From: Telluribacter humicola
GTDB taxonomy: Bacteria > Bacteroidota > Bacteroidia > Cytophagales > Spirosomataceae
DNA: 64,000 nucleotides
Reading direction: 5' to 3'
NCBI RefSeq assembly: GCF_017355935.1
Contig: NZ_JAFIQT010000001.1
Span: 1,116,001 to 1,180,000, forward strand
This document shows positions 2,991-59,466 of the stretch, one piece after another. Within the stretch, counting starts at the first letter, position 1. Every line of letters starts with the position of its first letter. The translations under genes were made by a program, and so were the position numbers. The notes under the pieces are model-generated. The model saw nothing but the letters and a program-made list of their open reading frames with translations. It was not told the origin of the DNA and ran no database searches.

Positions 2991-3665
2991 CTAATTAGAA
3001 TATGCAACCGACCCATCAAAATGCGCTGTGACTGTTTTACTATCGCTTACGGTAAATGAAGCCAGGTCAAGGATTTCACGCTTTGATATGGATTTTCTTT
3101 GCCGCTCAGATAGTCTGTAAGAAGCTACTTTGAATGGATCGTAAATTACAAAGTCTGGATCAAATGCTTTTTGTAAGGTATTAAGGACTAGATTTTCAAT
3201 CTTGTTTCTGCTTGCATGGGTATAGAGGGGGCGGGTAGTCCACTCCAAAAGTTCATTGTAAACCAGTACCACCCTGCCATCCACCAGGGAATAATAACTT
3301 GGAAACCGCGTAAGCGAACTCTTATCAGATAGTGGGTAGCTGCTGGTAGTTAGGGTGAAAGTAGCTACCACCTCTTTGGCGTGTGTATCTAACTGCTGTA
3401 AGGATATAGGTCCGGGAAGAGCGAGTTTGATGCGATCAATGGTAACAAAGCCATAGCCCTTTCCGAAAAGAGCCGAGCTGTCTGATCGTTCCTGAATAAA
3501 CTTCCTTACTTCCCTATATAGTAAAGGATTAGTTCGGAGGTCAATGAAATGGATCTCTAAGCTGTCTGTACGATTAATGATCTTTCCGGGATGGTAGGGA
3601 TCTTCTTGAGCCCATGCGCTGAGGCATAGCAGAGCTAATATGGAGGTGAGGAAGAGGTTTTTCAT
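2991..3665 (-). CDS. hypothetical secreted protein
   Basis: This 224-residue protein begins with a signal peptide (MKNLFLTSILALLCLSAWAQ, probable cleavage after AWA). The mature part is mixed alpha/beta and charged, with a segment (VYNELLEWTTRPLYTH) that gives no family call. There is no membrane anchor after the signal and no lipobox, so it is probably periplasmic. Like the gene downstream it is AT-rich compared with the surrounding genes. The function is unknown. Confidence 0.6.
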   Translation of the reverse strand: MKNLFLTSILALLCLSAWAQEDPYHPGKIINRTDSLEIHFIDLRTNPLLYREVRKFIQERSDSSALFGKGYGFVTIDRIKLALPGPISLQQLDTHAKEVVATFTLTTSSYPLSDKSSLTRFPSYYSLVDGRVVLVYNELLEWTTRPLYTHASRNKIENLVLNTLQKAFDPDFVIYDPFKVASYRLSERQRKSISKREILDLASFTVSDSKTVTAHFDGSVAYSN

Positions 3666-52880: not shown

Positions 52881-55800
52881 ATGAAGAAGATTGCTCTATC
52901 TTTTGGATTGATGCTAGCCTCCCTGCTCGTAGGGTGTGCGGTGCAGCAATCCGCAAAAACTGGCAGCATGGCCCAGGAGAAAGCAGTGAAGCCGCGGCGT
53001 TTGGAGGTTCTATTCCTGGGAGATAACGGTCACCACCGTCCCATTGATAGAGTTCCAGCCATCATGGCGGCACTGGGTGCCAAAGGCATCAACTTTACCT
53101 ATACCGACCGCCTTCAGGACCTCAATCCTGAAAACCTTAACAAGTACGACGCGCTGATGCTGTACGCCAACTGGGATTCCATTGGCAATCCGCAGGCGCA
53201 GGCGCTATTGGATTTCGTAGCTTCCGGCAAGGGATTCCTGCCTATCCACTGCGGCTCGTACTGCTTCCGCAACAACGCCGAAGTAGTAAAGCTGATCGGT
53301 GGACAGTTCTGGCGCCATACCTGGGATACTATCCAGCCCGTATGGACCCGGCCTGACCATCCGGCTATCGCGGGTGTAAAGCCTTTCAAAACCGTTGACG
53401 AAACCTACCTGCACACTCAGCTTCAGCCTGATAACGTGGTCCTGACGGAGCGGATCATTGGTGCTGACCAGGCCAAAGACAAGCCCGGACAAACGAAGGA
53501 GCCTTATACATGGGTACGTACGCACGGAAAAGGTCGCGTATTCTATACAGCCTACGGCCACGATGAGCGTACTTGGGGACAGCCTGAGTTTCATAATCTG
53601 ATTGAAAAAGGAATCCTGTGGGCGGTGAATGACGAAGCTCGTAAAGCACACGAGGCCCTTAAGCCACAGCCATTTGCCTACCGCGAGGCTAAGCTGCCTA
53701 ACTACGAGCAGCGTCCCGGTCCTCAGTTGCAGCAGTTGCCTCTCTCACCTGAGGAGTCGGTGAAGCACATCCAGATACCCGTTGACTTTACCCTGGAAGT
53801 ATTCGCGCACGAGCCGGATGTTGTTCACCCTATCGCGATGTCGTGGGATGAGCGTGGCCGCTTGTACGTACTTATTACCAAAGACTACCCCAACGAGCGC
53901 AAGGATACTGGCGGTAGCGACTACATCCTGATCTGTGAAGATACCAACAAGGATGGCAAGGCCGACAAATTCACCCGCTTCGCCGAAGGGCTAAGCGTAC
54001 CGACAGGTATGGTATTCGCTAATGACGGATTGATTGTATCACAGGCTCCGCACATGCTGTTCCTGAAGGATACCAACGGCGACGATAAGGCGGACGAAAA
54101 GAAGATTCTGTTCAGCGGCTTTGGTACCTTCGATACCCACGCCGGACCTTCTAACCTGCACTATGGCTTCGACAACTGGATCTATGGTTCGGTAGGATAC
54201 TCGGGCTTCAAGGGCAAGTTTGGCGACAAAGATTCACTCAACTTCGGACAGGCGCTGTTCCGTTTCCGTCCCGACGGTTCGGATATGGAACTGATGACGC
54301 GTACTTCCAACAATACCTGGGGACTAGGCTTCAACGAAGCTGGTGATCTCTTTGGCTCTACGGCTAACAACTCGCACGGCTGGTACATGGCTATTCCGCA
54401 CCGCTACTTCGGCGAGAGCCGCGTAGACAACGGTAGCCGCAGCACAGATACGCACAAGGATATGAAGCCTATCACGCCTAAAGTACGTCAGGTGGATGTA
54501 TTTGGCGGGTTCACGGCGGCGGCTGGTCATAACTTCTATACCGCCCGCGCATTCCCTAAGAAGTACTGGAATACCGTAGCCTTTGTATCAGAGCCTACGG
54601 GACACATTCTGCACCAGAACATAATGGTGAAAAATGGTACTGACTACGAAGATACCGATGGCTTCAACCTCCTGGCTGGAGCCGACGAGTGGGTATCCCC
54701 TGTATTTGCGGAGGTAGGTCCCGACGGAGCCGTATGGGTAGCTGACTGGTATAGCTTTATTATCCAGCACAACCCAACGCCTAAAGGCTTTGACAATGGT
54801 AAGGGTAACGCCTACGACACTGACCTGCGTGACTACACCCACGGACGTCTGTACCGCATCGCGTACAAAGGAGCCCCCGCCTATACCCCGATCATGCTGA
54901 GCAAGAGCCGTCCTGAAGAGCTGGTAGCTACGCTGAAAAATACGAATATGTTCTGGCGTCGTCACGCCCAGCGCCTGCTGGTAGAGCGCGGCAACACCGA
55001 TGTAGTACCGCAGCTGGTGGCTCTGGTAAAAGATAACTCCGTAGACGAAATAGGCTTGAACCCGGCAGCTATCCACGCTCTGTGGACCCTGCAGGGACTG
55101 GGAGCGTTGAAAGGACAGGACAACGAAGCCCTGAAAGCGGCTACGGCGGCCCTGAAGCACCCAAGCTCGGCCGTTCGCAAAACGGCTGTACAAGTACTAC
55201 CTCGCAATGCCGCTACGGCACAAGCTCTGATGCAGGCCAATGCCCTTAGCGATAAGGAGCCTCTGGTAGTACTGAATACGCTGCTGGCCTTTACCGAAAC
55301 ACCGCTGACTCCTGCCATTGAGAAAGCCGTACTGGCCCGGATGGAGCAGTCGACCGAAGCGGATGACCGCTGGATGCCGGATGTATTTGCGGTAGCCATG
55401 AATTCCCACGGAGGTAAGCTACGTCAGCAGTACCTGGCTGGCCGTAAAGCCAAGGCTTCTCAGGCAAGCAGCCAGAAAGCTTCGGCCAAGGCAGGTATGG
55501 ATCACAGCAAGATGGATCACTCTGCTCACCAGGCTAATAAGCCTGCGGCAAGTCTGGTACAAGGCAGTGCTGAGTTGGCTATTACCAACATCACCATTGA
55601 GCCAGGCCACCCGTATGTACGTGAGTACGCCCGTGTCGTAGTAGAGATCACCAACCAGGGTAGTGTAGCAGTACCTGCTGATGTAGTACCCGTGGTGAAT
55701 GTAGAAGTACGCGGCGGCGGATTGAACATCAACTACATCAGCAAGAACCTGAACAAGGGTATCGCTCCGGGTGAGACTATCAAGCTTTCCGAAGGAAATA

Positions 55801-56648
55801 ACGGTCCATGGCGGGCTAACTTCGGCTTTACTGCCGAGCAGGCCGGTAAAGTACAGGTAACAGCCGTGATTGACCTGGATAACGTAGTAGCCGAAAAAGA
55901 TGAGAACCGCAACAACCGCCTCTCCAAGAGCTTTGACGTACGTCGTCTCGACAAGTTGTCAGACTTTGCTCTCGAGCGCACCGCCCGCAGCTATGCTTCT
56001 TACGCCTCGGCTGATTCGGTACTGGCTCTCCTGAATACCGCGCAGGCACTCGATGCCGACGGAAGACTGGCCATAGTGAAAGGAGTAGTAGGAGGCTGGA
56101 ATGTGAAGCGTAAGGAAGTAGGTACAGAGGCAGCGCGCACCATGCTGGCCAGCCTCAAGAAAGAACTACCTGACGATCTGAGCCAGCGCATGAGCGGCCT
56201 TCTGGAATCATTCGGCATAAAAGATGATGTAGCCTCTGACCCGAATACACAGGTGGTACACATCAAGGCCGTACGTGAGGAAATGAAGTTTGACAAAACA
56301 GCATTTACGGTAGTGGCTGGCAAGCCCGTGGAAGTGGTTTTCGAAAATCCTGATGCCATGCAGCACAACTTTGTGCTGGGTAAGCCAAAGACGCTGGAAA
56401 TAATCGGAGCGGCTGCTGACAAGATGATCACGGCTAAGGATGGTGCTGAGAAGAACTACGTGCCTTCTATACCGCAGATCATTGCGGCTACGCCACTGGT
56501 AAATCCCGATCAGACCTACCGTTTGAAGTTCATGGCTCCTTCCGAGCCGGGCAGTTACCCATTTGTGTGTACATTCCCTGGTCACTGGCGCCTGATGAAA
56601 GGTGTTATGACCGTCACCAAAGAGCAGGCTATGAATACTTCGAAATAG
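52881..56648 (+). CDS. large lipoprotein: ThuA domain, propeller, HEAT/CARDB and C-terminal azurin-like copper domain
   Basis: This 1255-residue protein has a lipobox with Cys19 (LVGC). A ThuA-like trehalose-utilization domain follows (about 40-250). A beta-propeller of the PVC/heme-type family covers about 290-660 (DTNKDGKADKFTRFAEGL, WVADWYSFIIQH), then HEAT-like repeats (about 675-860). A Met/His-rich linker MDHSKMDHSAH is at 873-883, a CARDB-like domain at about 890-1010, and a final cupredoxin at 1125-1255. Its ligands His1162, Cys1230, His1235 and Met1239 have the azurin spacing C-x4-H-x3-M. The protein probably works at the outer membrane as an electron-transfer-linked sugar oxidation enzyme. 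Confidence 0.88.
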   Translation: MKKIALSFGLMLASLLVGCAVQQSAKTGSMAQEKAVKPRRLEVLFLGDNGHHRPIDRVPAIMAALGAKGINFTYTDRLQDLNPENLNKYDALMLYANWDSIGNPQAQALLDFVASGKGFLPIHCGSYCFRNNAEVVKLIGGQFWRHTWDTIQPVWTRPDHPAIAGVKPFKTVDETYLHTQLQPDNVVLTERIIGADQAKDKPGQTKEPYTWVRTHGKGRVFYTAYGHDERTWGQPEFHNLIEKGILWAVNDEARKAHEALKPQPFAYREAKLPNYEQRPGPQLQQLPLSPEESVKHIQIPVDFTLEVFAHEPDVVHPIAMSWDERGRLYVLITKDYPNERKDTGGSDYILICEDTNKDGKADKFTRFAEGLSVPTGMVFANDGLIVSQAPHMLFLKDTNGDDKADEKKILFSGFGTFDTHAGPSNLHYGFDNWIYGSVGYSGFKGKFGDKDSLNFGQALFRFRPDGSDMELMTRTSNNTWGLGFNEAGDLFGSTANNSHGWYMAIPHRYFGESRVDNGSRSTDTHKDMKPITPKVRQVDVFGGFTAAAGHNFYTARAFPKKYWNTVAFVSEPTGHILHQNIMVKNGTDYEDTDGFNLLAGADEWVSPVFAEVGPDGAVWVADWYSFIIQHNPTPKGFDNGKGNAYDTDLRDYTHGRLYRIAYKGAPAYTPIMLSKSRPEELVATLKNTNMFWRRHAQRLLVERGNTDVVPQLVALVKDNSVDEIGLNPAAIHALWTLQGLGALKGQDNEALKAATAALKHPSSAVRKTAVQVLPRNAATAQALMQANALSDKEPLVVLNTLLAFTETPLTPAIEKAVLARMEQSTEADDRWMPDVFAVAMNSHGGKLRQQYLAGRKAKASQASSQKASAKAGMDHSKMDHSAHQANKPAASLVQGSAELAITNITIEPGHPYVREYARVVVEITNQGSVAVPADVVPVVNVEVRGGGLNINYISKNLNKGIAPGETIKLSEGNNGPWRANFGFTAEQAGKVQVTAVIDLDNVVAEKDENRNNRLSKSFDVRRLDKLSDFALERTARSYASYASADSVLALLNTAQALDADGRLAIVKGVVGGWNVKRKEVGTEAARTMLASLKKELPDDLSQRMSGLLESFGIKDDVASDPNTQVVHIKAVREEMKFDKTAFTVVAGKPVEVVFENPDAMQHNFVLGKPKTLEIIGAAADKMITAKDGAEKNYVPSIPQIIAATPLVNPDQTYRLKFMAPSEPGSYPFVCTFPGHWRLMKGVMTVTKEQAMNTSK

Positions 56649-57848: not shown

Positions 57849-58985
57849 ATGAATCAGCTAACTGATTTTTTCTCTAAATTATTCAGTACCTCCGACTGGC
57901 CTCCGCGCTGGTACTGTGGTACCTGGTCAGATTTTCACGGCTGGCTTTATATTATTTCAGATCTTACCATCTGGCTGGCTTACATGTGCATACCTGTTAT
58001 TTTACTACGATTTGTCATAGTAAAGCGTGGGGTGCCGCTTAGAGGCGTATTTTGGTTATTTGGGGCGTTTATCCTGCTCTGTGGCCTTACCCATTTAATT
58101 GATGCCGTCATATTCTGGGTGCCTATTTACCGGATCAGCGCTTTGATTCGTTTTCTGACTGGTGTGGTATCTATCGGGACGGTAATTGCCATGATAAAAT
58201 ACTTTAATGATGCCGTAGGTCTGCGGACTTCCCAGGAGTATGAGTACGAGCTGAAGTACCGCCAGAAAGCCATGCAGGCACTGGAGCGGTCCAATGAAGA
58301 GCTGAAGCAGTTTGCTTACGTAGCCTCGCATGACCTGCAGTCGCCTCTGAAAACCATTGAAGGGTACCTGGGACTGCTGGAAAGTAAATACAAATCAGAA
58401 CTGGATGAGTCAGGACAGAAGATAATACAGACTACCGCTAACTCTGCTCACCGGATGCGTGACCTGATCAATGACTTGCTGGAGTTTTCGCAGGTAGGAC
58501 TGGGGCAGGATCTGACGAATGTGGATCTGAATAATGTACTGGGCGAAGCACTCGAGGAGATGGAGCAGGAAATAAATGAAAACAAGGCGGATATTACCGT
58601 CGGTAAGCTCCCCCAACTGCGGGCTTCACGGACAGATATGAAAAGAGTTTTTCAAAATCTGATATCTAATTCTATAAAGTATAGTCGCAAAGGGATACGT
58701 CCCGAAATCCATATATCTGTTCGTGAGAAAGCTTTTGAGTGGGTATTTTCGGTAAGTGACAACGGAATCGGTATTGACGAGTTATACTTTGAAAAAATAT
58801 TTCAGGTATTCCAAAGGTTACATGCACGCAATGAATACCCCGGTACGGGCGTTGGATTAGCAACGTGCAAAAAGATTGTCGAAACTCATAACGGCAAAAT
58901 TTGGTTAAATAGTGAACCAGGGAAGGGAAGTACTTTTCATTTCACAATTCCCAAAGACCTTAAAACAATACATGACTACGAATAA
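57849..58985 (+). CDS. sensor histidine kinase with ethylene-receptor-like membrane domain
   Basis: I use the ATG at 57849 because it precedes the membrane domain directly (378 residues); the frame extends to 57771. Three helices cover about residues 33-115. Their signature residues Asp38, Tyr45, Ile48, Pro49, Cys78 and His82 match the plant ETR1 ethylene-binding residues (D25, Y32, I35, P36, C65, H69) with identical spacing. The Cys and His coordinate Cu(I) in ETR1. A short linker is followed by the HisKA domain (H161 in VASHDLQSPL) and HATPase_c (NLISNSIKYS, DNGIGID, GTGVGLATCKK). The response regulator overlaps the stop codon by 14 bases. Confidence 0.9.
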   Translation: MNQLTDFFSKLFSTSDWPPRWYCGTWSDFHGWLYIISDLTIWLAYMCIPVILLRFVIVKRGVPLRGVFWLFGAFILLCGLTHLIDAVIFWVPIYRISALIRFLTGVVSIGTVIAMIKYFNDAVGLRTSQEYEYELKYRQKAMQALERSNEELKQFAYVASHDLQSPLKTIEGYLGLLESKYKSELDESGQKIIQTTANSAHRMRDLINDLLEFSQVGLGQDLTNVDLNNVLGEALEEMEQEINENKADITVGKLPQLRASRTDMKRVFQNLISNSIKYSRKGIRPEIHISVREKAFEWVFSVSDNGIGIDELYFEKIFQVFQRLHARNEYPGTGVGLATCKKIVETHNGKIWLNSEPGKGSTFHFTIPKDLKTIHDYE

Positions 58986-59400
58986 CAAACTGAGGTGTGT
59001 CCTGTTAGTGGATGATGACCCGGACGATAACTTCCTGCATCAGATCGTGATCAAAGAAAGCGGGATGAGTCCAAAGGTAGTAGTCGCTGAAAATGGCGAG
59101 GTGGCCTGGCATTATCTGACTACTTCCTGCCAAAAGACTGAATTCGATAAGCCGGATGTGATCTTTCTGGACATTAATATGCCCCGTATGAATGGCTTTG
59201 AGTTTTTGTCTTTGTACAAGACGCTGGCGGATGATCTGCGTGCAGGTACTAAAGTAGTCATTCTGTCTACTTCCTCTCATCCGCATGATTACGAAAAGGC
59301 TCTGTCCATATTCCCGGAGATACATTACCGGACCAAGCCCCTTACCGAAGAAATGCTCCTGAATATCCTGAACGGAGAGTCTTCGTTTTCAAACGTGTAG
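58972..59400 (+). CDS. response regulator, REC domain only
   Basis: I use the ATG at 58972, which overlaps the kinase stop by 14 bases, because the frame upstream lies within the kinase. The 142-residue protein is a stand-alone REC domain: VDDDPDD at the N-terminus (acidic pocket), phospho-acceptor Asp67 in VIFLDINMPRMNG, Thr/Ser at 100-101, and Lys122 in YRTKPLT. It has no output domain, so it is a CheY/Rcp1-type partner for the kinase. Confidence 0.93.
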   Translation: MTTNNKLRCVLLVDDDPDDNFLHQIVIKESGMSPKVVVAENGEVAWHYLTTSCQKTEFDKPDVIFLDINMPRMNGFEFLSLYKTLADDLRAGTKVVILSTSSHPHDYEKALSIFPEIHYRTKPLTEEMLLNILNGESSFSNV

Positions 59401-59433: not shown

Positions 59434-59466
59434 AAAAAGGAGCCCGCATGCGGGCTCCTTTTTTAG
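59434..59466. terminator. terminator of the kinase-regulator pair
   Basis: A perfect 30-nt palindrome (59434-59463) with A- and T-run ends is followed by another T. It is shared with the convergent MOSC gene. Confidence 0.93.

Follow-up and report, generated by a model that had tools for sequence, protein, structure and literature searches.

The window, a stretch of 64,000 nucleotides from Telluribacter humicola (contig NZ_JAFIQT010000001.1, positions 1,116,001 to 1,180,000), carries on its forward strand a gene for a sensor histidine kinase of 378 amino acids (57849..58985; ATG at 57849, TAA at 58983-58985). Its open reading frame and Pfam matches define an ethylene-binding-type membrane domain, ETR1_N (PF25487; residues 30-123, 57936..58217; E 1.3e-30, 106 bits against a cut-off of 27), followed by HisKA (residues 152-216, 58302..58496; 8.7e-14) and HATPase_c (residues 262-370, 58632..58958; 2.6e-28). 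Given these three matches, the identity of the ETR1_N domain is far beyond chance, and they bear out both the HisKA/HATPase kinase that the initial annotation had read in the remainder of the protein and the ethylene-binding domain for which it had proposed an HMM check. Within the H box, H161 is probably the residue that accepts the phosphate. Neither PAS nor GAF was found in the kinase (Pfam scan, E 0.001), and no receiver is fused to it. The adjoining gene encodes a REC-only response regulator of 142 amino acids (58972..59400, +; ATG at 58972; Pfam Response_reg 4.3e-15), and the overlap of 14 bases with the kinase stop that had been described for it is present at 58972-58985. Its likely phospho-acceptor is D67, and its relatives with solved structures include RCP1, RcpA and RcpB. 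The REC gene is followed by a hairpin resembling an intrinsic terminator, with a 13-pair stem and then a T run (59434..59463, +); shuffles gave an expectation of 1.7 terminator-like sites for the stretch and three were seen, and promoter-like sites near the pair were at chance level (3 against 3.2 expected).

Upstream of the pair are genes for a GH43 enzyme and a large protein of 1255 amino acids, and downstream, on the opposite strand, those for MOSC, DUF3500 and 3-keto-disaccharide hydrolase proteins; we see no reason to link these neighbours with the kinase and its partner. The large protein (52881-56648 of the window) combines ThuA with DUF7133, classed by NCBIfam as a PVC-type heme-binding family, and with a copper domain of the azurin/plastocyanin type. 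Its azurin-like end is the copper-type domain nearest to the pair, and no copper-resistance protein was found by Pfam among the five neighbours scanned. At E 1e-5, REC was matched 33 times in the Telluribacter genome, in 31 cases within frames shorter than 200 amino acids, and a search with a kinase query placed a kinase directly upstream in 8 of 30 fetched REC loci, the window locus included. Thus, the REC-only partner is not special in this genome.

In the membrane domain, the codons of D38 (57960), Y45 (57981), I48 (57990) and P49 (57993; all within 57960..57995, +) align with ETR1 D25, Y32, I35 and P36, and those of I75 (58071), C78 (58080) and H82 (58092; within 58071..58094, +) with I62, C65 and H69. 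All of these except I75 had been named in the initial annotation, and we reproduced their positions as well as the spacings of 7, 4, 29 and 4. With I75, which had been missed, the window kinase possesses all seven residues that we take to be required for binding in ETR1 (D25, Y32, I35, P36, I62, C65 and H69). Likewise overlooked was a conservative change to Arg at the position of ETR1 Lys91 (R101, 58149..58151, +), a residue of helix 3 that is the partner of D25 and stands outside the set of seven. The check made on the ETR1 reference letters covered the published residues, which fall at their published numbers. Ethylene binding has been tied to “seven conserved amino acids”, and K91 is cited there as a lysine with a part in ETR1 receptor output (PMC11819568). 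The three-helix domain of ETR1 has been modelled with copper near C65 and H69 (PMC6586836), and the site has been placed at Asp25, Cys65 and His69 (PMC12643061). Exchange of the conserved membrane-domain Asp for Asn cuts affinity about 100-fold, natural variants of it exist, and in an AlphaFold model it forms a salt bridge with a conserved Lys (PMC13012798).

For the membrane domain of the window kinase, AlphaFold (mean pLDDT 88.7, pTM 0.75; alignment of 15 sequences, including 14 viral-contig relatives) predicted helices at residues 3-11, 28-58, 65-87 and 94-134, the last three of them long. Judging by the spacing, D38 and Y45 (7 apart) would share one helix face, and so would C78 and H82 (4 apart). 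A single-sequence AlphaFold run of the whole kinase (pLDDT 48.8) was set aside. A sequence search at E 1 yielded no relative whose structure has been solved, and a fold search with the model gave no PDB match at E 0.001. Against a viral library, the top match of the fold search was a protein of 289 residues (E 1.1e-3), equal in length to a Maribacter phage protein discussed below; a phage holin in fourth place was not significant (E 0.55).

Across the family of the window genome the domain is common, a point that the initial annotation had missed. PF25487 was detected in 19 of 59 near relatives (18 above the cut-off), 80 of 222 family genomes and 21 of 395 genomes of a phylum sample, where all three counts include the window genome and the first two also a decayed copy in the sister species G001. 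It further occurred in 28 of 398 genomes (27 above the cut-off) from the phylum of a Solimicrobium genome, presumably Pseudomonadota, and in 12 of 247 from the phylum of a Pyrinomonadaceae genome, presumably Acidobacteriota, and the 14 control genomes were free of it in each of the five surveys. Plasmids carry it as well (18 of 72,556 records, among them Azospirillum, Novosphingobium, Blastomonas and cyanobacteria). Loci in this survey were taken from the best matches only. One genome of the Pyrinomonadaceae-phylum survey (G1384) has four separate ETR1_N matches (E 2e-37 to 5e-12), and a split receptor was seen at L062:4033-6054 (-), with the domain as a separate frame of 193 amino acids followed by a separate PAS-kinase of 477. 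For the scan of genome contigs, the ETR1_N domain alone would have served better than the whole kinase, which returned 11 loci that all matched solely beyond residue 128, outside ETR1_N. The named loci nearest by kinase were from Bacteroidetes, Saprospiraceae and Sphingobacteriia, and ETR1_N was absent from all five genomes searched among the 11. Many proteobacteria and cyanobacteria have been described as having predicted genes for the domain, joined to diverse output domains (PMC7700396), and putative receptors are mentioned for “other bacterial phyla” (PMC11819568); ethylene receptors of Bacteroidota did not appear in the titles and abstract starts of the best matches in the open-licence literature surveyed.

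We placed the window kinase in a tree of 108 rows, from which columns 25 and 91 were left out and which has few columns and 53 of 105 inner branches drawn open. Its branch (SH-aLRT 98) comprises 45 rows, all of the window's phylum, and together with a stop-cut copy outside the tree (L006) gives 46 places. All seven site residues are found in 42 of them, the incomplete ones having Phe at 32, Ser at 25, Asn at 25 and the stop-cut frame, respectively. Arg occupies the ETR1-91 position in 43 places (Leu, Leu and Lys in the remainder), and two stretches before helix 1, RWxCGxW and FHGWLYI, are invariant in 10 aligned branch members. A REC frame directly follows the kinase in 35 of the 46 places and is not adjacent in 11, with fewer than 370 bases to inspect at L077 and L089; REC was also absent from the longer stretches inspected for L030 (L108) and L073 (L104).

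There are signs of decay in close relatives. The sister species G001, a member of the same genus, has the kinase only as a degraded remnant beside an intact REC gene, another point absent from the initial annotation. The adjoining frames of 353 and 1257 amino acids and the REC gene are in place, and the remnant (L064:5429-5930) matches the window only in stretches corresponding to 58051-58192 and from 58756 onward, and its 502 bases contain 13, 8 and 7 stops in the respective reading frames of that strand. The REC proteins of the two species are identical at 129 of 142 residues, and their dN/dS of 0.057 implies that REC was kept by selection over most of the divergence; possibly it serves some function apart from this kinase. 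The copy in G009 has one in-frame TGA in helix 1 (L006:1537-1539), due to either decay or sequencing error. Considering the decayed kinase with its retained REC in G001 and the in-frame stop in G009, sensing seems to be dispensable in some lineages.

Two sets of relatives, both rarer than the window pair, depart from its architecture. In three genomes from two families (G240 and G426, one genus of f53; G468 of f74), a single frame combines HMA, E1-E2_ATPase, HAD hydrolase, ETR1_N, PAS, HisKA and HATPase_c (L066:4440-9038 (+), L067:6889-11487 (-) and L103:5936-10180 (-)). These fusions measure 1532 amino acids from the first start codon in G240 and G426 and 1414 as a stop-to-stop frame in G468, and the pump parts of G240 and G468 contain GMTC/GITC and CPC motifs, which we take to mark copper pumps. 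All three carry Asn at ETR1 position 25 and Asp at position 91. Directly downstream of the G240 fusion is a REC-only gene and after that a hybrid kinase, with cytochrome bd genes on the upstream side; in the class of G240 the domain was found in 6 of 245 genomes, three of them those with the fusions. Plant receptors are supplied with copper by carriers that include the P-type ATPase RAN1 (PMC6656775, PMC5400275), and the titles and abstract starts of the best matches in the literature surveyed contained no fusion of pump, ethylene domain and kinase. The fusion suggests that copper loading and the ethylene-receptor domain belong together, and its occurrence in three genomes agrees with a general involvement of the module with copper.

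The second set is viral. An alignment of five canonical domains retrieved relatives in 14 IMG/VR contigs and one of the window type added another (L166), which together with a Maribacter phage protein (8 of 50,697 phage records) makes 16 loci: L166:2947-3642, L200-L213 around position 3000 and L168:2390-3259. Scans with the window domain alone found no relative in viral contigs and no phage record at E 0.01, and L167 was dropped as its match covered 13 residues only. The proteins are 122-289 amino acids long (those of L202 and L203 are identical), and no kinase match at E 1e-3 was found in the 16 ethylene-domain frames. Cys and His are kept in all 16, and all eight proteins scanned (L166, L168, L201, L202, L207, L208, L212 and L213) passed the ETR1_N cut-off. 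Neighbours were scanned for all of the 15 viral contigs except L203, L206 and L209, and 9 contigs have one of phage type: a portal beside L166, a RusA-like resolvase beside L200, an integrase beside L210, tail proteins near L202, L204, L208 and L213, endolysins near L208, L210 and L212, a GH108 lysozyme near L208 and L211, and GH25 near L202. The scanned neighbours of L201, L205 and L207 had no named phage function. Lysis-type genes lie within about 2.2 kb in 6 of the 16 loci (L202, L208, L210, L211, L212 and the Maribacter phage Colly_1, where an annotated amidase adjoins the ethylene-domain gene). Based on place and number of helices, a role of the viral proteins as holins would be a guess. 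A term search did not find “ethylene” in the main text of the Maribacter phage paper (PMC8776804), nor were phage ethylene receptors seen in the titles and abstract starts of the literature surveyed.

ETR1 positions 25 and 91 appear to vary together. In 108 rows, retained from 119 distinct ones (ETR1 included) after dropping 11 in which Cys, His or the residue at 25 or 91 is missing, Lys or Arg stands at 91 in 97 of 100 with Asp at 25 and in none of the eight without it; one dropped row that has neither Cys nor His (L163) pairs Asn with Arg. The tree shows only six changes at position 25, and its supported branches yield just two pairs that are independent (median p 0.5). The viral loci have Lys or Arg in 6 of 7 cases with Asp, and Arg in 1 of 9 without it (L166, which breaks the rule). 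Because of the few independent changes on the tree and the exception of L166, we treat this covariation as a lead and not as a result.

Starting from the observed residues, domains, predicted fold, gene coupling and conservation of the module in the family, we consider it reasonably probable that the pair is a two-component system in which a putative Cu(I) site senses ethylene or another small olefin and signals via H161 to D67 of REC. The membrane domain would fold as a three-helix ethylene-binding module with Cu(I) held by C78 and H82. Ethylene or a similar small olefin might bind to the copper and shift the helices, which would alter autophosphorylation of H161, and the phosphate might then be passed to the REC-only protein of the overlapping gene, at D67; lacking an output domain, this partner presumably acts through protein contact. 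In ETR1, ethylene is reported to inhibit kinase activity, and the same has been predicted for AzoEtr1 of Azospirillum brasilense (PMC11819568). The pair is a genuine and probably functional member of a known family, and the initial annotation's reading of an ethylene-receptor-type kinase with a REC-only partner is supported by the features testable in the sequence and by the design of AzoEtr1. Counted against this reading are the Arg at the K91 position, the missing equivalents of the N-terminal Cys4 and Cys6 of ETR1, the decay in G001 and G009 and the 11 of 46 branch places without REC.

Short membrane domains are common in kinases, and an ordinary three-helix sensor kinase might resemble the receptors by chance; the probability of this is practically negligible, as it is refuted by the Pfam match (E 1.3e-30, with a bit score some four times the cut-off) and by the way the sequence aligns cleanly with proteins from cyanobacterial and Azospirillum plasmids. 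The Cu(I) site might also be real but respond to copper itself or to another copper ligand such as CO, with the kinase reporting copper status. The Cys/His pair is indeed the most durable feature, being conserved in 16 of 16 viral-contig and phage loci, several of which lack D25, P36 or K91, and three relatives have the module fused to a copper-type P-type ATPase. We nevertheless regard such a copper signal as rather unlikely for the window kinase, which also retains D38, Y45, I48 and P49 and has no copper-resistance protein among its five scanned neighbours, and ethylene binding has been reported for SynEtr1 and AzoEtr1, the bacterial relatives that were tested (PMC11819568). That gas binding has been lost or altered, leaving a kinase that is constitutive or answers another membrane signal, might be read from the change of Lys91 to Arg in nearly the whole branch and from the sister species, where the kinase decayed and the well-conserved REC remained. 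However, the seven binding residues persist in the window and in 42 of the 46 branch places, and we hold this loss to be quite improbable.

If sensing of ethylene by the pair proves true, a family with the domain in 80 of 222 genomes would be able to detect ethylene, which is both a plant hormone and a gas in soil, and a minimal kinase of 378 residues would be easy to express and dissect. The relatives, pump fusions and viral forms alike, matter more than the window pair itself, and the kinase-free viral versions that keep Cys and His separate copper holding from kinase signalling. We tentatively raise the possibility, itself doubtful, that the ethylene-receptor domain is a portable Cu(I) module wider than ethylene signalling. 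It would comprise the Asp-Arg branch, the pump-fused relatives of the same phylum (counterparts of the separate plant proteins RAN1 and ETR1 in one chain, with the acid moved from helix 1 to helix 3, Asn25 and Asp91) and the kinase-free phage forms, near lysis genes in several cases, which are possibly copper- or gas-gated holins or membrane switches.

Compared with known receptors, the A. brasilense plasmid protein L071, presumably AzoEtr1, shares all seven site residues with the window kinase and is 34% identical to it in the membrane domain. AzoEtr1 and AzoRRetr1 are the nearest tested design, as the kinase is followed, with a small start/stop overlap, by a REC-only neighbour of 135 amino acids, an order, partner and overlap common to both pairs; AzoEtr1 binds ethylene, which lowers biofilm formation there, and its disruption results in constitutive ethylene responses (PMC11819568). 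In AzoEtr1 a PAS separates the membrane domain from the kinase and the ETR1-91 position is Lys, in contrast to the window kinase with its Arg and no PAS. The finding in the window is real and its reading sound, and its kind is already known, since the same kinase/REC design has been published for AzoEtr1. By description, SynEtr1 of Synechocystis is likewise a bacterial ethylene receptor kinase with phosphotransfer to a response regulator, but it is also light-sensing and its regulator slr1213 activates small-RNA transcription, whereas the window REC is without an output domain (PMC11819568). Plant ETR1 shares the seven binding residues and a three-helix membrane domain, predicted by AlphaFold for the window and modelled for ETR1 (PMC6586836); unlike the window kinase, it has GAF, a fused receiver, Lys91 and the N-terminal Cys4/Cys6 pair, where C23 is the sole Cys before helix 1 in the window. 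Finally, the window REC is related to RCP1, RcpA and RcpB and thereby resembles the Rcp1-like REC-only regulators of bacterial phytochromes, while its partner kinase, according to Pfam, is not a phytochrome.
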